Origin: Desulfobacter hydrogenophilus
Lineage (GTDB): Bacteria; Desulfobacterota; Desulfobacteria; Desulfobacterales; Desulfobacteraceae
Length of the DNA: 64,000 bases
Direction: 5' to 3'
Assembly (NCBI RefSeq): GCF_004319545.1
Contig: NZ_CP036313.1
Coordinates: 755,501 to 819,500, forward strand
In this document: positions 10,177 through 47,862 of the stretch, piece after piece
Layout: every line of letters starts with the position of its first letter
Numbering within the stretch: the first letter of the stretch is position 1
Translations under genes and position numbers: made by a program
Notes under the pieces: generated by a model
Databases searched by the model: none
What the model was told of the DNA's origin: nothing
What the model saw: only the letters and a program-made list of their open reading frames with translations

Positions 10177-11130
10177 ATGAAGGTTAACCAAGTATTGCCG
10201 GATAAAAGGCAAATGATTCTTAAGATTTTATACCAGTCGGACGGTGAACCTGTGTCCGGGGTCAAAATCAGTCAAGCGGCCGGAATTTCCCGGGTGGCGG
10301 TCTGGAAACACATTAAAGCGTTAAAACAAGCCGGCGTGAATATTGAGGCCCTGCCAACGGGGTATAAACTTCAGGACGCCGATAACCTGCTGTATCCCTT
10401 TTGTTTCCCAACGCACCTTCGGGACAGAATTTTTCATTTCCCGGAACTTGACTCTACCATGGACCAGGCCCGGAAAATGGCCCGGCAAGGTGTACCGCAT
10501 GTCAGCTGCGTTATTGCCGAAGTCCAGACAGCCTCCAGGGGGCGATTGAACAGGCCGTGGGACTCTGACCGAGGCGGGCTCTGGTTTACCCTGATCCTCA
10601 AGCCTGATTTGCCGCCGCCCCTGGCGTGGACCATGAATTTTGCCGCGTCTGCCTGTATGTCCGAAGTGCTGTCCGACCTATTTGACCTGGATGTCCGCGT
10701 TAAATGGCCCAATGACCTGCTGCTCAAGGGCCGCAAGCTGTCCGGCATGCTGGCGGAAATAGAAACCCGGGCAGATATGGTTAATTTCCTGTTTCTGGGC
10801 ATCGGCCTTAATGTGAACAATGCACCGGAATCAGATCAATACCAGGCCATTTCCCTGAAAACAGCCCTGGGAAGATCTGTTTCCAAAAAACAAATCCTGG
10901 TCCGGTTCCTGGATCTGCTTGAATCCCGGATTACAGCCGTTGATCCGGCCCGGATCATCCGCCGGTGGAAGGATCGGACCGCCACCATCGGCACCCAAGT
11001 CCGGGTCCAGACCCATGACCAGATTTATGAAGGCAAGGCCCTGGATGTGGATGACACCGGAGCCCTCATTGTGAAAGGCCAAGACGGCATCACCCGAAAA
11101 ATTATTTATGGCGATTGTTTTCATGCCTGA
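10177..11130 (+). CDS. birA: Biotin operon repressor / biotin-[acetyl-CoA-carboxylase] ligase BirA
   Basis: A 317-residue bifunctional BirA. An N-terminal helix-turn-helix (VSGVKISQAAGISRVAVWKH, residues 28-47) is followed by the ligase domain with the biotinyl-AMP loop QTASRGRLNRPWDS (the GRGRxGR equivalent), KWPNDLL (active-site lysine) and GIGLNVN, and by a C-terminal SH3-like domain. It attaches biotin to carboxylases and probably represses biotin genes. It is followed by the biotin transporter genes bioY, bioM and bioN on the same strand, a natural regulatory partnership. The ribosome site before the ATG is weak. Confidence 0.92.
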   Translation: MKVNQVLPDKRQMILKILYQSDGEPVSGVKISQAAGISRVAVWKHIKALKQAGVNIEALPTGYKLQDADNLLYPFCFPTHLRDRIFHFPELDSTMDQARKMARQGVPHVSCVIAEVQTASRGRLNRPWDSDRGGLWFTLILKPDLPPPLAWTMNFAASACMSEVLSDLFDLDVRVKWPNDLLLKGRKLSGMLAEIETRADMVNFLFLGIGLNVNNAPESDQYQAISLKTALGRSVSKKQILVRFLDLLESRITAVDPARIIRRWKDRTATIGTQVRVQTHDQIYEGKALDVDDTGALIVKGQDGITRKIIYGDCFHA

Positions 11131-11253
11131 AAAACAGCCATGGGCAAACTTGATCGACCACTCCCCCCAGGCTCAACCCGGAACAAAACGTGCCAAGAAG
11201 TTAACAGCACGTTGAAATGTTTGAATAACCGTATTTAAATAGAAGATAAATCC

Positions 11254-23950: not shown

Positions 23951-26317
23951 ATGGGGAGGTTGATATTTCCTGTAGGAACAATTCTTTTAGGAAGGCTGCT
24001 CATAAACCGCCGAAATCGAATTAAATCAGAACAATTGCAACAAGAGAGCGAACAAAGGTTCCAACGGGCCATGAACGCGAGCCAGGATGGTGTATATGAT
24101 TGGGATTTAAAAACCAAAGACATCTACTATTCTCCGGGTTGGAAGCGTATGCTTGGTTATGAACCCGATGAACTTCCAAATGATTTTTCTATTTGGGAGG
24201 AATTAACACATCCAGATGATGTAAAAGCGTCTTGGACTATTATAAACGAGGTGATTGAGGGTAAACGTGATCGGTTCGAAATTGAGTCCAGAATGAAGCA
24301 TAAGAACGGTCATTGGGTTGATATTTTATCCAGATCGAACCTGTATAAAGATGATCTGAATGGCAAAGTCCGTGTCGTTGGGACTCATGTAGATATATCA
24401 GAGATTAAAAAGGTTGAAAGAAAATTAAAAGAAAGAGAAGAAGAACATGGGGCAATCCTTAAAACTGCCATGGACGGTTTCTGTATCCTTGATACTGCAG
24501 GCCGCTTTCTCGAAGTGAATGAAACCTATTGTGAAATGAGCGGCTATGCAGAAGAAGAACTTCTTCGCATGGATATCAGTTCCGTGGAAGATGTTGAGGA
24601 GCCCGCCGACACCGCCGCACACATGCAGAAGGTTCTGGCCGAGGGACAGGACCGGTTTGAAAGCCGCCACCGTCGGAAGGACGGGACAGTCTTCGATGTG
24701 GAGGTAAGCGTTCAGAATCGACCGTTGGACGAACCGCAATGCGTGGTCTTCATTCGTGACATCACCGCTCACCGCAAGGCCGAACAGGATTACCAGACCC
24801 TCTTCCGCGAAATGCTGGACGGCTTTGCCCTGCACGAAATTATCCTCGATGCGGCCGGAACGCCGGTGGATTATCGTTTCCTGGCCGTCAATCCTGCATT
24901 CGAACGTATGACCAGTCTGAAGGCTGTGGACATCGTGGGGCGCACCGTCATAGAGGCCCTGCCCAGCACTGAGCGTCACTGGATTAAAACATACGGTAAG
25001 GTGGCACTCACCGGCGAACCAGCACACTTCGAGAGCCATAGCGCTGAGGTTGGAAAGTATTTTGAAGTCACCTCCTTTCGTCCTGTCCCGGGACAGTTTG
25101 CCTGCATTTTTCAGGACATCACCGAGCGCAAAAAGGCCGAAGCCGAGCGGGAAAAACTTCAGACCCAACTCACACAGGCCCAGAAAATGGAATCCATCGG
25201 CAATCTTGCCGGTGGTATTGCTCATGATTTCAACAATATTCTATTCCCGATTGTTGGAATGTCTGAACTACTTCTCGAAGATCTACCACCAGGCAGCGGT
25301 GAGAGGGAGAATGTTAAAGAAATTTTTAAGGCAGGTAAAAGAGGCAGCGACCTTGTAAAACAGATTCTCGCCTTCAGTCGTGAATCTGAACATAAAATGA
25401 TGCCAACCCGAATTCAAAATATTTTGAAGGAAGTAATAAAACTATCCCGATCTACTATTCCAACCTACATTGAAATAGAACAAGACATTCAACAAAACTG
25501 TGGCATGGTCATGGCAGACCCATCCCAAATTCATCAAATCGGTATGAATATTATTACCAATGCCTATCATGCAGTAGAAGACACTGGTGGAAAAATTTTT
25601 ATTAAGTTGAATCAAACCGTATTGGATACCAATAAACTGCTTCAAACCGATCTGAAACAAGGTGATTACGCGGTTTTATCAATTTCAGATACCGGCCATG
25701 GAATGTCAAAGGAACTTAGCGGAAAAATTTTTGACCCATATTTTACGACAAAAAAGCAGGACAAAGGAACTGGATTAGGTTTGGCTGTGGTTTATGGCAT
25801 TGTCAAAGCGCATGGGGGAGACATAAAGGTCCACAGTGAAATTGGCAAAGGATCGACCTTCGACATATATTTCCCGGTGATGGAAAAAACGGATAGAACT
25901 GAGTCATTCATAGAAGTTGAAGCGTATCATGGAGGGAATGAACGGATTTTGCTGGTTGACGATGAGGAGTCAATTGCAAAGCTTGAAAAACGGATGCTTG
26001 AACGAATGGGTTATAAAGTCACCTCACGCTTGCACAGCGGTGAAGCCCTGGAAAAATTCAAATCCAGTCCATCCTTATTTGATTTAGTTATCACTGATAT
26101 GAGCATGCCAAACATTCCAGGAGATGAATTAGCACGAAAAATTAAATCTATAAGATCTGACGTTCCAATCATTATTTGCACAGGATTCAGCGAAAGAATC
26201 CATGAAAATAATTTTGAGCAAATGGGTATAGATGGTTTGTTGATGAAGCCAGTCGTGAAATCGGAACTTGCTAAAACTGTTCGAAAAGTGCTGGAGAAAG
26301 CCCAAGGAAAAATTTAA
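23951..26317 (+). CDS. Hybrid sensor histidine kinase with three PAS domains and a receiver
   Basis: 788 residues: a short membrane-like start, PAS1 (about 35-155), PAS2 (160-275), PAS3 (280-395), a coiled linker, HisKA with phospho-acceptor H in NLAGGIAHDFNNIL (about 425), HATPase (MNIITNAYHAVEDTGG, SISDTGHGMS, GTGLGLAVVYGIV) and a receiver (ILLVDDEE, VITDMSMPNIPG, IIICTGF, LMKPV). It should autophosphorylate and pass phosphate to its own receiver. No ribosome site is evident before the ATG, so the true start or the connection to the LytS domain upstream is uncertain. Base composition changes inside the gene: the PAS2-PAS3 part is clearly richer in G+C than both ends. Confidence 0.85.
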   Translation: MGRLIFPVGTILLGRLLINRRNRIKSEQLQQESEQRFQRAMNASQDGVYDWDLKTKDIYYSPGWKRMLGYEPDELPNDFSIWEELTHPDDVKASWTIINEVIEGKRDRFEIESRMKHKNGHWVDILSRSNLYKDDLNGKVRVVGTHVDISEIKKVERKLKEREEEHGAILKTAMDGFCILDTAGRFLEVNETYCEMSGYAEEELLRMDISSVEDVEEPADTAAHMQKVLAEGQDRFESRHRRKDGTVFDVEVSVQNRPLDEPQCVVFIRDITAHRKAEQDYQTLFREMLDGFALHEIILDAAGTPVDYRFLAVNPAFERMTSLKAVDIVGRTVIEALPSTERHWIKTYGKVALTGEPAHFESHSAEVGKYFEVTSFRPVPGQFACIFQDITERKKAEAEREKLQTQLTQAQKMESIGNLAGGIAHDFNNILFPIVGMSELLLEDLPPGSGERENVKEIFKAGKRGSDLVKQILAFSRESEHKMMPTRIQNILKEVIKLSRSTIPTYIEIEQDIQQNCGMVMADPSQIHQIGMNIITNAYHAVEDTGGKIFIKLNQTVLDTNKLLQTDLKQGDYAVLSISDTGHGMSKELSGKIFDPYFTTKKQDKGTGLGLAVVYGIVKAHGGDIKVHSEIGKGSTFDIYFPVMEKTDRTESFIEVEAYHGGNERILLVDDEESIAKLEKRMLERMGYKVTSRLHSGEALEKFKSSPSLFDLVITDMSMPNIPGDELARKIKSIRSDVPIIICTGFSERIHENNFEQMGIDGLLMKPVVKSELAKTVRKVLEKAQGKI

Positions 26318-26342
26318 TTTTCAGTATAACGGCCATGGCCGC
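26318..26342 (-). repeat. End fragment of the two-stem repeat family
   Basis: TATAACGGCCATGGCCG matches, in reverse, the right end of the dispersed repeat (CGGCCATGGCCGTTAT) seen between nifD and nifK. Only the last 20 or so bases are recognisable. It lies directly after the sensor kinase stop and before the nifV fragment. Confidence 0.45.
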
Positions 26343-26373
26343 CCCCGGACTATGCCTATGTTGGCGTTGAAAA

Positions 26374-26949: not shown

Positions 26950-27611
26950 TTACCTACTTTTCTTTCGACCAGGCTTTTTCGGCCTCAGCCGCCTGTCTAA
27001 AATAGTCTCCAATTGTTTTACAAAAATCGTTTTTCCCAACGGGCGGCCGGTCCGTTCATACTTTCTAAACAATTCGATTTCAGATGTATGAATATCAGAA
27101 GATAAAAAATTTCTCCAGGATGTATTGACAATTTCAAGCAGGGGGCTTGTTTTGACAAGAATATCATCCTTTTCATCCATATGTGCCCCGGCGCTGATCC
27201 ATTTTCAATCCTCAGGACGTTTTGCAAGACCGGCACGGACCGGCTTGTACTCAATATACTGGGTACACGCCAATAAATACTTTTTTCCCATGATAAATGA
27301 CGCAAACCGCCCTTGCCATAGATGACCGCGCCAACCTTCCCTGAAATTGATCATTCTCGTATATCGCCTGTGTGCTTCCCCAATGGCCAGATTTAATCCA
27401 TCCTTGGTTTCCGGAACGGCAATCAGATGGATGTGATTGGGCATCAGGCAATAAGCCCATATTGCGACGTTATATTTCAGGCACCATTCCAACATCAAAG
27501 CCAGATAGGCTTCGAAGTCCTGATCGCTGAAAAATGTCTGCTGCCGTCTATTCCCCTTTGTGTAATGTGATAAGGGAAACCCGGAGCCACAGTTCTTGCT
27601 ATCCGTGCCAT
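26950..27611 (-). pseudogene. REP-associated tyrosine transposase (RAYT, Y1_Tnp) pseudogene
   Basis: Reading from ATG 27611, the protein begins MARIARTVAPGFPYHITQRG, loses frame by one base near 27553, then continues NRRQQTFFSDQDFEAYLALM, the HUH-type motif YCLMPNHIHLIAV, GHLWQGRF and ACTQYIEYKPVRAGL. A TGA at 27205 stands where related proteins have tryptophan (RPEDW), after which SAGAHMDEKDDILVKTSPLL and a basic tail continue in frame to 26950. The catalytic tyrosine in the YIEYKPVRA helix is still encoded. Two lesions make it inactive. RAYTs mobilise REP palindromes; REP-like palindromes occur nearby at 27757 and 32259. Confidence 0.85.
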
Positions 27612-40096: not shown

Positions 40097-40138
40097 AAGT
40101 TTACTCCTGTTGCTTTTTATCTATGTTTTCAGGTATTT

Positions 40139-40352
40139 TTTATACGAAAGTCTGTGTAACCTACCCAGATCTTTCAACTCTCGTTGTGGGCTGAGTCTGG
40201 GTGTTGATAGACCAGGTCAGCCCATGGCTGTTTTATATGAAAGTCTGGATAAGTTACTCAGATCTTTCAACCTTTGTTGTGGGCTGTGCCTGGGTATTGA
40301 TAAACCAGGTCGGCCCATGGCTGTTATATGAAATCCTTGGCCCATGGCCGTT
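40139..40352 (+). repeat. Tandem array of the two-stem repeat in the nifD-nifK gap
   Basis: Two nearly complete units (about 40139-40235 and 40232-40330) and a shortened third (40328-40352). Each unit has stem 1, ATGAAAG ... CTTTCA, and stem 2, TGGGCTGA-gt-CTGG ... CCAG-g-TCAGCCCA, and ends CATGGCTGTTaTATGAAA, which is also the start of the next unit. The right end supplies the nifD stop codon (TTA on this strand, positions 40351-40353). Unit 2 has TGGGCTG opposite CGGCCCA, so pairing is kept despite base changes. Confidence 0.8.
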
Positions 40353-41982
40353 ATTCCCCAACGAACGTGGCGGACAATTCGGGGTCCTTCTGCCAGGGGG
40401 CTTCCAGGTATTGCCAGATATTGGCATTGAGCATGCGGTCAATTTCTTCAAAAAAGTTTATCGCGCCTTTAAATACCGCGTATGGCCCACCCGTATCATA
40501 GGAGTGGAGCTGTTTCATGGGAATACCGTGCTTCTGAACTGCATATTTTTCCTTGATACCGGCACAGAAGATGTCCGGCTTGTACATGGCGATCAGGGTT
40601 TCTGTTTCGTGATGGCTGATGTCATCAACGATCAGGGAGCCTTTGGTCATTTCAGGGAGCAGACCCTCATACTCTTTAAACGGATACCCCTTTTCTTCCA
40701 GCGCCTGCATCTGTTCCGGGGTCTTTCTGGGGCTGTACAGGTTTTCATCTTTTTCTATGGTCAATTCTTCAATATTTCTGGAATCGGCATCAACCTTGAT
40801 ATCCGGAATGACATGGCGTCCTTCATAATCATCCCTGTGGGCAAATTCGTATCCGGCGGACAGCACCTTCATGCCGATCTCTTTGAACAGTTCCTGGTAG
40901 TGGTGGGCCCGGGAACCACCCACAAACATCATGGCGGTTTTGCCCTCACACCGTTTTTTGACATCTTTGATTTTGGCCTCAACGGGAATCATCTCCTCGG
41001 CAATCACCTCTTCCACCCGGTCAATGAGTTCCTGGTCTTCAAAATAAGCGGCTATTTTACGCAGGCTGCTGGCGGTTGACGTTGGTCCCGTAAAGCTGAT
41101 TTTTATCCAGGGAATGCCGTACTTTGTCTCCAGCATGTCTGCGACGTAGTTAATGGATCTGTGGCACATGACCGCATTGAGATCTGCGGTGTGACAGTTG
41201 GCAAACTGGTCAACGGTGGAATTGCCTGAAAATGTGGAAACAAGGTCAATGCCACACTTATGCAACAATTCGTCAATGATGAACCCGTCGCCGCCGATGT
41301 TGTATTCACCCAGCAAATTAATTTTAAATTTCGCGTCCATGACCGTGTCATTCAAGCCCACAACATGTTTAAAAATGGCGTTGTTGGCAATATGATGGCC
41401 AGCGGACTGGCTCACGCCCTTGTAGCCTTCACAGGAAAATCCAAAAATATTGATGCCAAGCTTTTCCTTCATCTCCCTTGCCACGGCATGGACATCATCG
41501 CCGATCAGACCCACCGGACAGGTGGAAAAGATGGAGATGGCCTTGGGTTTAAAAATGTCATAGGCCTCCTGAATGGCCGCTTTAAGTTTCTTTTCCCCGC
41601 CGAAAACAATGTCTTCGTCCTTCATGTCCGTGGAAAAGCAGTAGGTCATATAATTGTCGGCATCGTCTGATGGGGGACGGGTCTGGTTGCGCCGGGTCAG
41701 CCAGGAATAAAATCCGCAGCCGATGGGGCCATGGGTTAAATTGATGATATCCCGGGTCGGACCCATAATAACGCCTTTGCAGCCGGCATAGCAGCATCCG
41801 CGCTGGGTGATGATGCCCGGAACGGTCCTGACATTGGCGCCTACCTGGAGGCCCTCTTTATCATCGCTTGAAACCGGGGTGATCTGTTTGCCGCGTTTCC
41901 GGGCCACTTTGGGCGGATACTTGGACAGTATTTCTTTTTTTATATCTTCCGGGTTAACGGTATGGGTTCGTTCGCCTGTCAT
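40351..41982 (-). CDS. nifD: Nitrogenase molybdenum-iron protein alpha chain NifD
   Basis: 543 residues. P-cluster cysteines lie in ITQRGCCYAGCKGV, HGPIGCGFYSW and STCPVGLIGDD; FeMo-co ligands are Cys in LNAVMCHRSINYV and His in KQLHSYDTGGPYA. FSCEGYKGVSQSAGHHIAN and YEFAHRDDYEGR are also typical. Length includes the roughly 50-residue insertion seen in clostridial-type NifD. No vnfG/anfG delta gene is present, so this is a molybdenum enzyme. AGGGG precedes the ATG. Its TAA stop falls in the end of the repeat array. Confidence 0.95.
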   Translation of the reverse strand: MTGERTHTVNPEDIKKEILSKYPPKVARKRGKQITPVSSDDKEGLQVGANVRTVPGIITQRGCCYAGCKGVIMGPTRDIINLTHGPIGCGFYSWLTRRNQTRPPSDDADNYMTYCFSTDMKDEDIVFGGEKKLKAAIQEAYDIFKPKAISIFSTCPVGLIGDDVHAVAREMKEKLGINIFGFSCEGYKGVSQSAGHHIANNAIFKHVVGLNDTVMDAKFKINLLGEYNIGGDGFIIDELLHKCGIDLVSTFSGNSTVDQFANCHTADLNAVMCHRSINYVADMLETKYGIPWIKISFTGPTSTASSLRKIAAYFEDQELIDRVEEVIAEEMIPVEAKIKDVKKRCEGKTAMMFVGGSRAHHYQELFKEIGMKVLSAGYEFAHRDDYEGRHVIPDIKVDADSRNIEELTIEKDENLYSPRKTPEQMQALEEKGYPFKEYEGLLPEMTKGSLIVDDISHHETETLIAMYKPDIFCAGIKEKYAVQKHGIPMKQLHSYDTGGPYAVFKGAINFFEEIDRMLNANIWQYLEAPWQKDPELSATFVGE

Positions 41983-42020
41983 ATGTTTATACCCCTATCT
42001 TTTCTCTCATGTTATTTTAC

Positions 42021-42401
42021 TTAAAATTCGTCAAGAACGGCATCTCCGCTTTCAGATGTCCTCACGGAGATGGAGTCGTCGGTGGGCATGACCCATATGA
42101 CCCCGTCTCCTGTTTTTCCGGTTTGGTTGGCGTCTATAATGGTGTCTACGGTTTTTTGAACCAGTTTGTCCGGCACAACCACAAAGATGGCCCGCTTGGG
42201 CTGGAGGCCGTCGCTCTGGCCCAGCTGGGCAATGGCCTCTTCATGCCCCTCTTGCGCACCCTTAAGCAGCTCCATGCTCACCAGGGCTTTGCCGCGTCCC
42301 AGACACTCCTGGGCGGTCATGGAAGAAACACCCGCGCCAATCAAGGCCTTTTTGGTCGCATTGATCTTGTTCATGCGAACAATAGCCATGATCTCTTTCA
42401 T
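42021..42401 (-). CDS. nifI2: Nitrogenase PII-like regulator NifI2
   Basis: 126 residues of the PII fold with the extended T-loop of the NifI2 group (QLGQSDGLQPKRAIFVVVPD) and a B-loop ANQTGKTGDGVIWVMP. The start overlaps the nifI1 stop by 4 bases. With NifI1 it forms a complex that binds the MoFe protein and blocks electron transfer when ammonium is present; 2-oxoglutarate relieves this. Confidence 0.92.
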   Translation of the reverse strand: MKEIMAIVRMNKINATKKALIGAGVSSMTAQECLGRGKALVSMELLKGAQEGHEEAIAQLGQSDGLQPKRAIFVVVPDKLVQKTVDTIIDANQTGKTGDGVIWVMPTDDSISVRTSESGDAVLDEF

Positions 42402-42757
42402 GATGCCACCGCCAGGTCTTCATCAAGGTCTATGTCTTTTTTGCCTGAGCTGATGGTATAAGACTCAATGATCGGAGAGATAAAAATCTTGCCGTCGCCA
42501 AAGGCGCCTTTCTCACCGGTCTTTGCGGTTTGTAAAATGGTTTTAAGGACAAAATCACGATCTTTTTCATCGATAACCGATAAAAGCATCTCCTTGGGAA
42601 TTTCGTCATAGGTGATTTCACCGATTTTGATTCCCCGCTGTTTTCCACGTCCGGCCACACTCATCCGGGTGACCGCCGGATATCCTGATTCCATGAGGGC
42701 GGCCATGACTGCGTTAACTTTTTCAGGGCGAACGATGGCTTTAATCATTACTTTCAT
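42398..42757 (-). CDS. nifI1: Nitrogenase PII-like regulator NifI1
   Basis: 119 residues: MIKAIVRPEKVNAVMAALME, SVAGRGKQRGIKIGEITYDE (NifI1 T-loop) and the B-loop TAKTGEKGAFGDGKIFISPI. It lies between nifH and nifD, the position known from methanogens, clostridia and sulfate reducers, where post-translational control is by NifI1/NifI2 rather than only by NifH ADP-ribosylation. Confidence 0.92.
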   Translation of the reverse strand: MKVMIKAIVRPEKVNAVMAALMESGYPAVTRMSVAGRGKQRGIKIGEITYDEIPKEMLLSVIDEKDRDFVLKTILQTAKTGEKGAFGDGKIFISPIIESYTISSGKKDIDLDEDLAVAS

Positions 42758-42789
42758 TTAAATATTCCTTATGGTTCTTAGGTTTTTGG

Positions 42790-43629
<840 letters not shown>

Positions 43630-43699
43630 TTAATTAAGCGTTCGTTGTTTTTAGTTTTAACAGGCAAAGAACCTGTCCGTTGTCGTAATGCCAGTAACT

Positions 43700-43714
43700 G
43701 CAACGGACGTTCCA
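43700..43714 (-). promoter_or_regulatory. Sigma-54-type (-24/-12) promoter of nifH
   Basis: On the minus strand TGGAACGTCCGTTGC gives GG and GC separated by 10 bases, matching the -24/-12 consensus TGGCAC-N5-TTGC. The -12 element lies about 86 bases before the nifH start codon. It implies an enhancer-binding activator, which is not encoded in this window. Confidence 0.75.
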
Positions 43715-43825
43715 TCGTGATTTGGGATGAACTGCAAAAAGATCTAACTTGTTTGAATTACAAATTGATTTAAATAAAAAAATTTTTTTATTTATGTGCG
43801 CCGAGTTTAGACAGGGGTATATATA

Positions 43826-43862
43826 TTACAAATACGAAACATATATCGATTCAAATATGTAA
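43826..43862. promoter_or_regulatory. Paired TACAAAT boxes upstream of the nifH promoter
   Basis: TTACAAATACGAAA (43826-43839) and TCAAATATGTAA (43851-43862) face each other inside a larger dyad ATATTACA ... TGTAATAT. They resemble the boxes upstream of modA1 and the glutamate synthase genes. The location about 110-150 bases upstream of the promoter would suit an activator or enhancer site. Confidence 0.45.
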
Positions 43863-44074
43863 TATTTTATCAATAGATTGATTATTCTTCATAAGACTGA
43901 TCTTTACCGGGTGTTAAAAGGGGGGTGTTGGAAAATTTTAATGAGAACGAACAGGATGTTAGCTATTAGAGCACTTTTAATCTGGCTATAATTAAAGACT
44001 CCAAAAGTGTAAGTTTTTAATTTATTTTTTTTTGCTGACGGATATGTGAAGAATATCTTCTGATTTAAGGTGTT

Positions 44075-44170
44075 TTTATAAGAGAATTTGTGCAACCCAC
44101 ACAGATCTTTTAACTTTTTCTGTGGGCTGAGCCACGGTGAGAAGCCAGGTCAACCCACACGCTTGTTATA
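44075..44170 (+). repeat. Two-stem repeat, single copy, at the 3' end of the GNAT gene
   Basis: Stem 1 is reduced (AAGA ... TCTT). Stem 2 is TGTGGG-c-TGA ... TCA-a-CCCACA, with base changes on both arms relative to the nifD-nifK copies, so pairing is conserved. The right end GCTTGTTATA provides the TAA stop of the GNAT gene (44166-44168). Confidence 0.7.
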
Positions 44171-44639
44171 GGCGTTCTTGATCCAGGGATTTGACCAGAC
44201 AGATCAATGAGGTGCGTTTCCACGCGTCTTTATTATAAAAATCAAGACAGTCCTTGTCGTCTTTGTCTGCAAGCAGAGAGATGGATTTTATCCCCTTATT
44301 TACAGCCCAGCCTTCGATGGCAGACAGCAGAAGGGTTGATAGTCCTTTCTTCTTGTATGCACGATCCACAATTAGATCACTTACCACCGCATTGAGATTA
44401 CCCTGGACCATTGAAATTTGAGCTTGGGCCGAACACAAGCCTACAATTGTGTCATTCATCCACGCCACCTTCACAGCCCTGTGTTTCCCGCAGCCGTCCA
44501 GCATCAGTCGCAGACCCCGGGCCTGGACCTGGACACCGGGATTAAATTTAAAATCCTGTTCTGTTGCAAACTGCTGGGTCAGCAGAGGCAACATCTGATC
44601 AATATCGATAGGGCGTGCATCTTTAATGATAATTTCCAT
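44166..44639 (-). CDS. GNAT family N-acetyltransferase
   Basis: 157 residues with the acetyl-CoA-binding V/I-x-x-x-x-[RQ]xxGx[GA] region modified to LIVDRAYKKKGLSTLLLSAI and preceded by NLNAVVSDLIVD. The C-terminal SISLLADKDDKDCLDFYNK is typical of GNAT fold beta-6/7. The substrate is unknown. It lies 11 bases downstream of modC of the second molybdate operon, so it may be co-transcribed with it. Confidence 0.8.
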   Translation of the reverse strand: MEIIIKDARPIDIDQMLPLLTQQFATEQDFKFNPGVQVQARGLRLMLDGCGKHRAVKVAWMNDTIVGLCSAQAQISMVQGNLNAVVSDLIVDRAYKKKGLSTLLLSAIEGWAVNKGIKSISLLADKDDKDCLDFYNKDAWKRTSLICLVKSLDQERL

Positions 44640-44650
44640 AACTTTTTTCC

Positions 44651-45706
44651 TTAGAATATTTTCTTGAATGCCGATGCCTTTATTGCCGCCACCACCATCG
44701 CGCCTTCTTCAATCCCCAACTCACGCACAGATTCGGAAACGATCTGGGCAATCAGATGTTCATTACCACAGGCAAGCCCCACACGCACACGATTTCCGCT
44801 GCTATAAATATCGGTCACAGTACATTGCAAAAGGTTTCTGGCACTTGTTGCCTCGGGATGCCGCTTGAAAAGAAGAATGTCCCGGGAATCGAGCTCAAAA
44901 AGATTTTCTTCACCCTCTGCCGGTTCAGTGAGAATGAAATTGATATGCCCCCACTTATAACGAAACAGATCCTTACAGGGTGTGGCACCACCCAGATTAA
45001 TCAAGTTGACATAACTTTCAAGACCGCTGCCCCACGATTTTCTCACCAGTTCCTCAGCCGCACTGTGCCGCTGAATACGGCCCTTTTGGATCACAAAAAC
45101 CTCATCGGTCATCATCCGCATCTCCAGCACCGAATGGCTGATGAAAATCATGGGAATGCCGTAATTGTTGAAGACATTTTTCAAATACGGAATAATCTGA
45201 AATTTATGCCCCTCATCCAAAGCCGAAAGCGGTTCATCCATCAAAATAAGCCGAGGATTTGACAGAACCGTCCTTGCCAGGGCAATACGCTGCCGTTCCC
45301 CGCCTGACAGGGTGGAAACATCCCTGGACAAAAGCTGCGTAATACCAAGAACCTTAAAAAGGCCTTCGGGATCAATCTGTCTATTTTCGAGTTTGATCCG
45401 TTTATATCCATAGAAGAGATTTTTTTTAACGCTCATATGGGGGAATAGATGGGCATGCTGAAACACAACACCGATGTTGCGCTGATTCGGCTTCAAATTA
45501 ATCTTTCTCTTTGCATCAAAAAGAACGGTATCACCCAATCGAATAAAACCGCTGTCCGGCAGTTCCAGGCCGGACAGCAGATTCATAATCGTTGATTTTC
45601 CGCTTCCTGACGGACCGAAAATCCCCGTCCTTGGTGAGGAGAGACTGAAGGCCACATCAAGGGTGAAATCCTTGAAACTTTTTTTTAACTCAACATCTAA
45701 CTGCAC
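44651..45706 (-). CDS. modC: Molybdate ABC transporter ATPase ModC (second operon)
   Basis: 351 residues: Walker A GPSGSGKSTIMNLLSGLEL, Q-loop VVFQHAHLFPHMSVKKNLFY, signature LSGGERQRIALARTVL, Walker B LILMDEPLSALD, and a C-terminal Mop/TOBE domain (LLQCTVTDIYSSGNRVRVGL) that binds molybdate. This is the standard ModC length and layout. It follows modB by 2 bases. Confidence 0.92.
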   Translation of the reverse strand: MQLDVELKKSFKDFTLDVAFSLSSPRTGIFGPSGSGKSTIMNLLSGLELPDSGFIRLGDTVLFDAKRKINLKPNQRNIGVVFQHAHLFPHMSVKKNLFYGYKRIKLENRQIDPEGLFKVLGITQLLSRDVSTLSGGERQRIALARTVLSNPRLILMDEPLSALDEGHKFQIIPYLKNVFNNYGIPMIFISHSVLEMRMMTDEVFVIQKGRIQRHSAAEELVRKSWGSGLESYVNLINLGGATPCKDLFRYKWGHINFILTEPAEGEENLFELDSRDILLFKRHPEATSARNLLQCTVTDIYSSGNRVRVGLACGNEHLIAQIVSESVRELGIEEGAMVVAAIKASAFKKIF

Positions 45707-45708
45707 TG

Positions 45709-46407
45709 CTACCCTCTCCTGAACTTGCGGTTTATTGCCTCACTAATAAGAAGGATGGCAAAAGAAAGGCTGATGGAGACCAGACACAGCGTCAGCGCCA
45801 TCCTGTCTCCACCCGGAACAGAGGTGTATTCATAAATTGCCAAGGGTATTGTCTGTGTCACCCCCGGGATATTGCCGGCAAGGATAACGGTTGCGCCGAA
45901 CTCACCCAGGTTTCTGGCAAACATCAACGACATCCCGGCAAAAATCGCACGACCGCTCAAAGGCAGAACAATGGTAAAAAAGCTATCCCACCATCCCGCA
46001 CCAAGGGTTCGAGATACTGAAATATAGGATTGATCCACCGCCTCCATACCAATACGGATTGAACGGACCATCAGGGGGAATCCGACAACCGCCGAGGCAA
46101 TAACAGCACCGGTGAGTGAAAAAACCACCTGAATACCCAAAAGGTTCAAAAACTTACCGATCAAACCGTTGGACCCGAAGGACAGCAGCAACAAATATCC
46201 GACCACAACCGGCGGCAAGACTAATGGCAGACTGATAAGCCCTTCCACCACGGCCTTGCCTCTAATTTTACCGAAGGCAAGAAAGTAACCACAAGCAATG
46301 CCAAAGGGGGTGGAGATCAAGGTCGCCGAGCAGGCAACCTTCAGGGAAAGCCCGACGGCAGAAATATCCTGGGGAGAAAGTGTCAGCATTGTAATTTCAT
46401 TTACCAT
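45709..46407 (-). CDS. modB: Molybdate ABC transporter permease ModB (second operon)
   Basis: 232 residues (a start at the sixth or seventh codon is equally possible). Five or six helices and the motif MFARNLGEFGATVILAGNIP define ModB. It forms the channel for molybdate with ModC2 and the binding protein 9 bases upstream. Confidence 0.93.
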   Translation of the reverse strand: MVNEITMLTLSPQDISAVGLSLKVACSATLISTPFGIACGYFLAFGKIRGKAVVEGLISLPLVLPPVVVGYLLLLSFGSNGLIGKFLNLLGIQVVFSLTGAVIASAVVGFPLMVRSIRIGMEAVDQSYISVSRTLGAGWWDSFFTIVLPLSGRAIFAGMSLMFARNLGEFGATVILAGNIPGVTQTIPLAIYEYTSVPGGDRMALTLCLVSISLSFAILLISEAINRKFRRG

Positions 46408-46415
46408 GCCCCGTA

Positions 46416-47171
46416 TCAGGGCAGTGTAAAACCAAGACGAATCATTTCCGAATGGGCCGCTTCAGAAACGATATAGTCATAGAAGAGTTTGGCATCGGCG
46501 TTCCCGTCGCTGTCCTTTGTCATTGCAACCGGATAGGTTACTCGACTATAAAACTCAAGAGGCACTTCAAACAGAATCTTGGCATTGATGGCGAGCATCG
46601 CATCCGTTTTGTAAACAAACGCGCCGTCGGTCTCTCCCCGGTCGGCATAGATCAGTGCCTGGCGGACGTCCTTTGCCATGATCAGTTGCCCATTCTTGAG
46701 CATTTCATCATATATGCCCTCTTTATCCATCGCCTGCTTAGCATACTGACCGGCCGGCACGCTGTTGGGACTGCCCAAGGCAACACGCGTCAGCTTCTGT
46801 AAATCGCTCATAGATTGAGCATCCGTACTTGACTTACCCACAAAAACCAACGCATTATGTGCAAATATTTTTTTGGTGTCCGACTCAATCTTGCCCTTTT
46901 CAATCAAATGCGTCATCCACTTCGGATTGGCAGAAACATAAATATCTGCAGGCGCCCCCTGTTCGATTTGCTTTGCTAAGGCGCCGGATGACCCAAAATT
47001 TGGGACAATTTTCACATCCGGATACTGTTCCTGAAACTGTACTATCAAATTATTGCACAGATTACTCATACTCTTTGCCACTGAAACACGAACCTGCCCA
47101 GCCTGGGCATAGGTACTGAACACCAGCAGTATAAAAACAACAAAAATGTTTAATACACATACCTTTTTCAC
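46416..47171 (-). CDS. modA: Molybdate-binding protein ModA (second operon)
   Basis: 251 residues with a signal peptide (VCVLNIFVVFILLVFSTYAQA). Binding loops are VSVAKSMSNLCNNLIVQF, NFGSSGALAKQIEQGAPADI, ALGSPNSVPAGQYAKQAMD and YADRGETDGAFVYKTDA, which match ModA closely. This operon is the more typical modABC of the two and lies next to nif genes, so it probably supplies molybdenum for FeMo-co. AAGGAGG precedes the ATG. Confidence 0.93.
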   Translation of the reverse strand: MKKVCVLNIFVVFILLVFSTYAQAGQVRVSVAKSMSNLCNNLIVQFQEQYPDVKIVPNFGSSGALAKQIEQGAPADIYVSANPKWMTHLIEKGKIESDTKKIFAHNALVFVGKSSTDAQSMSDLQKLTRVALGSPNSVPAGQYAKQAMDKEGIYDEMLKNGQLIMAKDVRQALIYADRGETDGAFVYKTDAMLAINAKILFEVPLEFYSRVTYPVAMTKDSDGNADAKLFYDYIVSEAAHSEMIRLGFTLP

Positions 47172-47239
47172 GTCAAACCCTCCTTTTTCGTATTTATCCG
47201 TTTCATATAAAAATCAAAATACATTATTGTTTTATTTTC

Positions 47240-47396
47240 ATGCTTTGTTGTGGGTCGAACTTGGGCATCGATATCCCAGATCAGCCCGTGGCTGTTTTAT
47301 ATGAAAGAACTGAACTAACCGGTTAGTTTCTTTCATAATCTGTCGTGGCCTAACCGCGGTGGAAGACCAGGTCGGCCATGGCTGTTATTCGGAATA
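47240..47396 (+). repeat. Two tandem copies of the two-stem repeat between modA2 and nif11
   Basis: The first copy (about 47245-47304) keeps stem 2 only: GTGGGTCGAACTTGGG ... CCCAGATCAGCCCGTGG. The second (47298-47394) has an extended stem 1, ATGAAAGAACTG ... TTTCTTTCAT, and stem 2 GTGGCC ... GGCCAT, ending ATGGCTGTTATT. They share the junction TATATGAAAG as in the nifD-nifK array. Confidence 0.75.
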
Positions 47397-47487
47397 CGGT
47401 TATCATCGACGGCAAAACAATGTCAAGCCATATTTTCAAGCTACAAATGGGCCTTTTTTTATTATTAATATAATATTTCTTCGGACC

Positions 47488-47503
47488 TGGAATACTCTTT
47501 GCA
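47488..47503 (+). promoter_or_regulatory. Sigma-54-type promoter of the nif11 gene
   Basis: TGGAATACTCTTTGCA has GG and GC separated by 10 bases and matches TGGCAC-N5-TTGCA. The -12 element is 45 bases before the Nif11 start codon. Together with the nifH promoter it suggests common control. Confidence 0.75.
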
Positions 47504-47547
47504 TTAGTTTTATTTTTATTTAACTTATTAATTAATGGAGAAGCACA

Positions 47548-47766
47548 ATGTCAAAAGAAAACGTTCTAGCCTTTTTAGATAAGGGAGCAGATGACCGCAA
47601 ATTCCGCGTAAAGTACGACAACTGTTTTTCAATGGAAAAATTTTGCGCCATGGCAAAAGAAGATGGTTTTGAGTTTACTGTGGAAGAACTGCAAGCGGTA
47701 TTGAAGATGAATGGGGACTCTTTCGATTCATATGGCAATCCGCCAAAGAAAGGCATTTGGGTATAA
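47548..47766 (+). CDS. Nif11 family small protein
   Basis: 72 residues; GGAG precedes the ATG at 8 bases. It starts MSKENVLAFLDKGADDRKFR and has the diagnostic Nif11 core FCAMAKEDGFEFTVEELQAV. Nif11 proteins were first noted in nitrogen-fixing bacteria; a subset are leader peptides of ribosomal natural products. Here there is no double-glycine cleavage site and no Cys/Ser/Thr-rich core after the helix (the tail is GDSFDSYGNPPKKGIWV), so the nif-type, non-bacteriocin role is more likely. It has a sigma-54-type promoter and is bracketed by dispersed repeats on both sides. Confidence 0.85.
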   Translation: MSKENVLAFLDKGADDRKFRVKYDNCFSMEKFCAMAKEDGFEFTVEELQAVLKMNGDSFDSYGNPPKKGIWV

Positions 47767-47862
47767 CAGCCATGGGCTGACCTGATCTATCAACACCCCA
47801 GACGCAATTTACAACAGAACATGAAAGGCCTTTAATTACTTAATTGAAACTTTCATGTAAAA
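47764..47862 (-). repeat. Two-stem repeat, inverted copy, starting at the nif11 stop codon
   Basis: Read on the minus strand: stem 1 CATGAAAG ... CTTTCATG, then a weakened stem 2 TCTGG ... CAGG, and the end GTCAGCCCATGGCTGTTA. Its last bases are the nif11 TAA stop (47764-47766). It is in opposite orientation to the other copies, matching the opposite orientation of nif11. Confidence 0.7.

Follow-up and report, generated by a model that had tools for sequence, protein, structure and literature searches.

What is the short, two-hairpin repeat that recurs around the nitrogenase genes of Desulfobacter hydrogenophilus? The stretch in question, referred to here as the window, comprises 64,000 nt of contig NZ_CP036313.1. 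An earlier note on its sequence had described six copies and some fragments around nif, mod and nif11 genes, and proposed either a non-autonomous element or an RNA processing/stability module of 3′ untranslated regions (UTRs). The repeat is probably a non-coding, non-autonomous, high-copy mobile element of ~97 bp, with two different near-terminal hairpins and a likeness to palindrome-associated transposable elements (PATEs), gene-less relatives of IS200/IS605 transposons; the repeat itself would be mobilised by a Y1 transposase. Comparison of occupied and empty sites among related genomes shows a family that has been mobile in evolutionary time, landing immediately 3′ of (W)ATAA. The first of the two proposals is thus the one sustained, by genome-wide copies, presence or absence between relatives, empty sites and subfamilies with compensatory changes.

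Copies in the window, the genome and relatives

A single copy used as BLAST query returned 25 places in the host genome. The earlier note had proposed a covariance-model search of the genome and its relatives, and this search yielded many places and a wide spread. The model was trained on 11 copies (5 from the window, 6 from the BLAST search) and placed the element at no fewer than 150 positions in the 5.16 Mb host genome, training copies included, the weakest listed having E 5.1e-5; there were 2461 first-look candidates, of which the best 150 were scored. Two of the 150 places are an identical pair in a duplicated nif operon. A further 16 places at E<1e-3 were found in 20 stretches picked for orphan ends, which with one diverged window copy (copy 4, below) makes at least 17 extra. 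A 17-base left-end pattern allowing up to 3 mismatches gave 354 matches vs 172 for a reversed control. A home-made gene caller predicts no gene that contains any of the 150 places. With tandem arrays collapsed to 135 units, 59 are sense and 24 antisense between co-directional genes, 30 lie between divergent and 22 between convergent genes.

At E<=1e-3, 30 of 59 genomes match, host included: within the genus 17 of the 18 other members, within the family 10 of 17 further genomes, and within the order another 2 of 23, where single weak matches may be due to chance. An even sample of the order, again counting the host, contains matches at E<=1e-5 in 14 of its 291 genomes, which belong to 7 of 132 genera. 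The outliers (G085, G128, G265) have their own subfamilies, in which the ends and the inner CACAAC and GAAAG..CTTTC blocks are alike; the element is present as separate subfamilies in a few other families. The closest named sequences to the host NifD are from Desulfobacter (91-96 % identity). Phages and plasmids gave no element match, and pattern searches of viral contigs gave 0 and 12 matches, with no model match at any of those 12 loci. No account of the family was found in the open literature on Desulfobacter and Desulfobacteraceae repeats, with broader listings sampled in part and subscription papers outside the scope; term look-ups in two stem-loop/REP surveys show no Desulfo- species.

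Because of its ends, the element is best read in the sense opposite to that of the earlier note, as WATAA^CRGCCATGG...CTTTCATATAAAA (the caret marks the junction), or in more of its length WATAA^CRGCCATGGGC...(hairpin H2)...CACAAC...(hairpin H1, GAAAG..CTTTC)..ATATAAAA. The opposite strand is called the reader strand below. Sequence inspection, folding and the covariance model bear out the six window copies, of 93-101 nt each, and the remnants:

40138..40235, minus strand: copy 1, subfamily D-like; 106.9 bits, training copy; tandem 3′ partner of copy 2.
40231..40328 (G000:C1:795731-795828), minus strand: copy 2, subfamily C; 101.9 bits, training copy; fold z -5.0.
40324..40353, minus strand: internally deleted remnant TAACGGCCATGGGCC..TTTCATATAA, recognised in the sequence; begins at the TAA stop of the 40351-41982 gene.
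44074..44170, minus strand: copy 3; 89.9 bits, training copy; abuts, on the 3′ side, the TAA stop of the acetyltransferase gene 44166-44639.
47201..47299, minus strand: copy 4, diverged; 53.6 bits; tandem 3′ partner of copy 5.
47297..47389, minus strand: copy 5, subfamily B (GGCCATGGCC, stem compensated); 64 bits, training copy; fold z -3.9.
47762..47862, plus strand: copy 6; 69.2 bits, training copy; 3′ of a GTATAA that holds the stop codon of the Nif11 gene 47548-47766.
11130..11228, plus strand: decayed copy; 29.5 bits, E 3.3e-4.
26325..26345, plus strand: 5′-end fragment starting TATAACGGCCATGGCCGCC, from pattern match and sequence; 7 nt past the histidine kinase gene 23951-26317.

Copies 1 and 2 are in tandem with 5 nt in common, copy 2 being upstream in element sense, and copy 1 (fold z -3.9 on the opposite strand) lies in the spacer separating two nitrogenase component 1 genes, presumably nifD and nifK; the mod label is likewise assumed. 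Pfam assigns the neighbours to two nitrogenase component 1 genes, NifH, a GNAT acetyltransferase, ABC transporter genes with a solute-binding protein, and a Nif11 peptide (PF07862, gene 47548-47766). Copy 4 was outside the training set and was not among the places listed by the model scans of the genome and the window; with filters off it scored E 3.8e-12 in 153 bases. The earlier note had rightly seen a copy here, although its span is longer than the 47240-47300 then given. The end fragment reported near 26318 also exists and starts somewhat further on, at 26325. The statement that all copies share both stems and the end CATGGCTGTTA was too strong: copy 3 ends in CACACGCTTGTTATA, stem 1 is diverged in copy 4 and reads ACGAAAG in the first copy and AAGAGAA in copy 3, and stem 2 is broken in copy 6 (fold z -1.1).

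Insertion sites and tandem arrays

Empty sites are readable in relatives. D. vibrioformis (L179) lacks copy 3 and reads GTAA^TACCTT at the same stop codon, and D. latus (L180) lacks copy 6 and reads GTATAA^TCG. The nifD-nifK array is missing in both species and in L181; copy 1 has an orthologue in the metagenome-assembled genome L178 and none in L179, L180 or L181. Of 15 genomes in which the nifD-nifK spacer is readable, 3 have copies there, 2 have a decayed remnant and the other 10 lack both; in all five occupied spacers the element begins at one and the same stop codon. The remnant at 40324..40353 is common to L178 and G012 and absent from the empty spacers. Some of the genomes numbered with G are conspecific with the named loci, so that the two sets were kept separate. 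Elsewhere in the host, a young copy (L102, 2961914) sits between TTAATAA and TCAATAACGC, and its counterpart in G004 reads CTATAA^TCAATAACGC; this site is composite, the end of an older copy being directly upstream. At L069 (1344981) the host lacks sequence, including a hairpin, that adjoins ATAA in relatives; a deletion either accompanied the insertion or came after it.

Among 107 non-tandem copies the pentamer before the element is TATAA in 45, AATAA in 28 (together 73) and GATAA in 6, counts in which the final two As are biased by construction, the junction having been set by the AAC motif. The termini, (W)ATAAC.GCCATG and CTTTCATATAAAA, show reverse complementarity at no more than a few A/T bases, and terminal inverted repeats are thus absent. 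No clear target duplication is seen at 44074, 47762 or L102 2961914, where TAA and the next base occur once and are followed by the element's TATAAAA; a duplicated TAA may be hidden within the element's own end.

Of the 150 copies, 24 have their exact start at a stop codon. Coincidence with a same-strand TAA stop (22 of 62, vs 16.6 expected if any spacer TAA were equally likely, p 0.026) is mostly explained by the TAA target, with a small excess left over, and stop-codon targeting as a function was set aside on that ground. Once the 24 stop-codon copies are removed, 57 of 111 arrays have the same orientation as the upstream gene and 54 the opposite one.

The host genome has 15 tandem pairs, in which the model matches overlap by 4-7 nt. 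Partners are mostly from different subfamilies (judged by eye in the part of the pairs that was listed) and are therefore better regarded as separate insertions at the TATAA end of an earlier copy than as duplications. Divergence is greater in the upstream copy for 11 of 15 pairs, or 11 of 14 without the pair doubled by the nif duplication, in which the order of divergence is opposite. L178 carries the remnant and copy 1 without copy 2, a difference that could be an insertion or a loss by recombination; the two nif copies in G018 look as if they differ through such a recombination loss.

Two further observations concern these loci. A second nitrogenase region, 99 % identical and including the repeats, lies at G000:C1:3464961-3469145 in the host genome and may be a genuine duplication or an artefact of assembly; G017 has three nif regions. 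Two 3′-truncated copies (L263 4324218, L268 3059291) continue without a gap into a hairpin that is strong and carries a T run, which gives the appearance of recombination with the terminator of a gene.

Folding, covariation and the pattern of mutation

Within the window, fold z is below -2 in four of six pieces and below -3 in three, one piece being incomplete. Genome-wide, z is below -2 in 53 of 90 copies in element sense and in 60 of 90 on the reader strand. Eleven of the 150 copies (recombinant, broken off or belonging to the duplicated nif pair) were excluded, giving the sets of 139 and 90 copies used here. The palindromes near both termini are two hairpins with covariation between subfamilies. 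In the 90 non-redundant copies, 139 cells show changes on both sides of a pair vs 89.8 +/- 7.2 in shuffled alignments, with 0 of 500 shuffles as high; paired cells amount to 77.8 % vs 73.5 % in shuffles and 20-46 % in slid controls. The top covarying pairs are in H1 (UA 38 / AU 37, GC 38 / AU 21 and GC 30 / CG 13). Covarying pairs are mostly differences between subfamilies.

The youngest subfamily (A; 39 gapless copies, limited to those with no more than 12 differences) gives another picture. Its 52 singletons are spread evenly over the sense fold, 31 in the 56 paired columns and 21 in the 34 unpaired (p 0.77), and 25 of the 31 break a pair. For the reader-strand structure the figures are 31 in 52 paired and 21 in 38 unpaired columns (p 0.89), with 18 of 31 breaking. 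Since pairing is kept between subfamilies and singletons are unconstrained, the fold seems, on these alignments, to serve movement and not a function of the resident RNA. The earlier suggestion that conserved pairing reflects selection on the fold therefore applies to the lineages that moved, whereas resident copies give no sign of it. The TTA of the H1 loop, conserved base by base in no less than 90 % of the 90 copies, is complementary to the target TAA; that it acts as a guide is a guess.

Mobilisation, rival explanations and related elements

By analogy with PATEs and IS200/IS605 transposons (PMC3119063, PMC7290912), the single-stranded folded ends would be recognised in trans by an HUH transposase (Y1, IS200/IS605-type), whose cuts would fall 3′ of WATAA and behind the right end, which resembles TATAA. 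This partner transposase would have been lost from the host genome, or would be present without being recognised. Comparison of sites shows that the element brings along its own 3′ end, CTTTCATATAAAA, and with it a fresh target for later copies, from which tandem arrays arise.

The search for the enzyme covered the host Y1 loci fully and 28 of the 116 Y1 loci found in the genus, with 1.5 kb on either side of the domain inspected by eye for short end motifs. Several Y1 and TnpB loci have a whole element copy nearby. A resident Y1 element (IS200-like or RAYT-like) or TnpB element as autonomous parent was rejected, as no locus read is framed by both ends, and so was a longer element with the same ends, the orphan 5′ and 3′ ends among the matches listed being truncated, decayed or ordinary copies. 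The Y1 gene at window 27247-27549 (minus strand) looks RAYT-like; together with L160, L162 and L165, the last of them broken, it makes up a small group, and some of these loci have short repeats of their own in common, unlike the element. A nine-copy, near-identical IS200-like element (L146-L154) has a left hairpin CCTCCACC..GGTGGAGG and a right hairpin CCCCCAG..CTGGGGG, which also differ from those of the element.

Several results weigh against Y1 mobilisation of a folded, precisely cut element. Element ends frame 0 of 25 host Y1 loci, 0 of 28 genus Y1 loci and 0 of 25 TnpB loci, and the copy-rich draft genome G007 has two Y1 fragments and no TnpB, so that the link between copies and Y1 content looks weak. 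IS608 and ISDra2 target the lagging-strand template (PMC6006769), and the element shows no replication-strand bias, the plus strand holding 35 of 68 copies on one arm and 44 of 82 on the other (summed by hand, with arms assigned from the GC skew of sampled stretches). The left hairpin lies almost at the element edge, which would leave no room for a classical 5′ guide. Measured in 65 copies, the A-run following CTTTCWTAT has lengths between 1 and 8, most often 7 and never more than 8; 23 of the 65 reach 7 or more, where the composition of the flanks beyond four As would give 3.5 %. Such length variation would not be expected of a precise cut. The readable empty sites belong to copies with A-runs of 4-5, and the flank of the one long-A-run copy checked is not conserved in relatives. 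Among covariation measures, the number of pairs and of pair types does not exceed shuffles (109 and 75 of 500); relatedness inflates the remaining measures, the both-sides count among them. In 127 of the 139 copies the reader strand has the more stable fold, an advantage that comes mostly from almost invariant pairs at the foot of H2, which are G-U when read on this strand. Wobble pairs were tried as an indicator of the active strand and discarded, the counts being even (43 reader-type vs 50 sense-type) once two dominant columns are left out. Finally, when shared variants are counted, reader-strand paired columns look more conserved in subfamily A (0.028 vs 0.049 changes per column per copy), a difference that vanishes when singletons alone are counted.

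Simple local duplication around nif and mod, with no element involved, is practically out of the question: tandem pairs in the window and the copies carried by the 99 % nif-operon duplicate would suit it, but it is refuted by the at least 150 dispersed places with unrelated flanks and by the matches in relatives, together with distinct subfamilies and empty sites. A 3′ UTR module for RNA processing or stability, held at many genes by selection on the RNA fold, is very improbable. The low z values in the window and genome-wide, the 24 copies beginning exactly at a stop codon and the covariation across subfamilies could all be read in its favour; however, copies also occur in divergent and antisense contexts, the TAA target accounts for most of the coincidence with stops (22 of 62 vs 16.6), singletons of the youngest subfamily strike paired and unpaired columns equally often, and 10 of 15 genomes have no element in the nifD-nifK spacer. 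Nor does Rfam match the window at gathering score, or positions 40100-40400 (301 bases) at E<=1. Single copies may have been co-opted for RNA roles.

Two rivals concern the machinery of a mobile repeat. Other machinery, such as a transposase of another class or a route tied to a reverse transcriptase and leaving an A tail of variable length, is unlikely overall; it would accommodate the A-runs of 1 to 8, the lack of matching ends at the Y1 and TnpB loci read, the near absence of Y1 from G007 and the lack of strand bias, yet 5′-truncated copies are few (by eye), ends are otherwise precise, and the readable empty sites have A-runs of 4-5, with no site for runs of 7-8 among them. It is likewise unlikely that machinery so far not known to move such repeats, linked to neither Y1 nor TnpB, copies a folded strand of the element onto ATAA and leaves a variable 3′ oligo(A), with the element re-targeting its own 3′ end so that different subfamilies stack head to tail. 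It is improbable that the family is of REP/RAYT type (REP, repetitive extragenic palindromic), that is, short palindromes dispersed by a domesticated Y1 transposase of the host itself. High copy number, intergenic location and imperfect hairpins agree with that origin, and host Y1 genes of ~230 aa, presumably RAYT-like, are present. However, none of the Y1 genes read is flanked by the element, alignments judged by eye show no conserved GTAG tag, and the 97 bp unit with two unlike hairpins contrasts with REPs of 20-40 bp (PMC3733652).

On the reading preferred here, a PATE-like element mobilised by a Y1 transposase, the closest comparison is with PATEs themselves, described from Haloquadratum walsbyi as bearing palindromes and free of both inverted terminal repeats and clear target duplication (PMC3119063), with one PATE in Halanaerobium (PMC7290912). 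The element shares the absence of inverted terminal repeats and of a clear target duplication, the near-end palindromes and a length too short for a transposase, and also the short 5′ target sequence, extreme 3′ ends that are similar across subfamilies, and internal deletions. It differs in its ~97 bp length, two unlike hairpins, stacking on its own 3′ end, variable A-run and subfamilies across several genera of the order, and no resident IS605-type transposon with matching ends was found at the loci read, each with 1.5 kb flanks. Because the palindromes of a PATE proper are related to those of an IS605-type transposon and no such transposon was found, the element is said to work like a PATE, and membership is not claimed. 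It belongs with the known short, hairpin-ended, non-autonomous mobile repeats.

Miniature inverted-repeat transposable elements (MITEs) such as ERIC, Correia, BOX and bcr1 are short, non-coding, high in copy number and intergenic, as is the element. Their ends are inverted repeats, frequently accompanied by target duplications (PMC3119063), and neither feature is seen in the element. Like REPs and bacterial interspersed mosaic elements (BIMEs) with their RAYTs (PMC8266576, PMC3733652), it forms many intergenic imperfect hairpins per genome and is non-autonomous; unlike them, it has two unlike hairpins in fixed order and spacing, no visible GTAG or CGTC tag, no flanking RAYT that could be found, and WATAA as target. 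IS200/IS605 elements insert 3′ of a tetra- or pentanucleotide, lack terminal inverted repeats and target duplication, and have hairpins at their ends (PMC7290912), and the element resembles them in its asymmetric hairpin ends and insertion 3′ of a short target.

An abundant repeat family of this kind shapes the intergenic space of a sulfate-reducing genus, the nitrogenase-operon spacer included. Its covariation, which arises between subfamilies, most likely because the element needs the pairs to move, could lead RNA-discovery screens to false calls of 3′ UTR RNAs, and covariation between subfamilies with none within them offers a cheap test for similar candidates. The identity of the mobilising enzyme would tell whether unrelated transposases can serve orphan PATE-like elements. 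Two more dispersed repeat families, of ~150-160 bp, occur in the host genome, at L102:6416-6578 (G000:C1:2962108-2962270) and L069:6032-6202 (G000:C1:1344304-1344474), with many listed matches in genus genomes at ~76-94 % identity.

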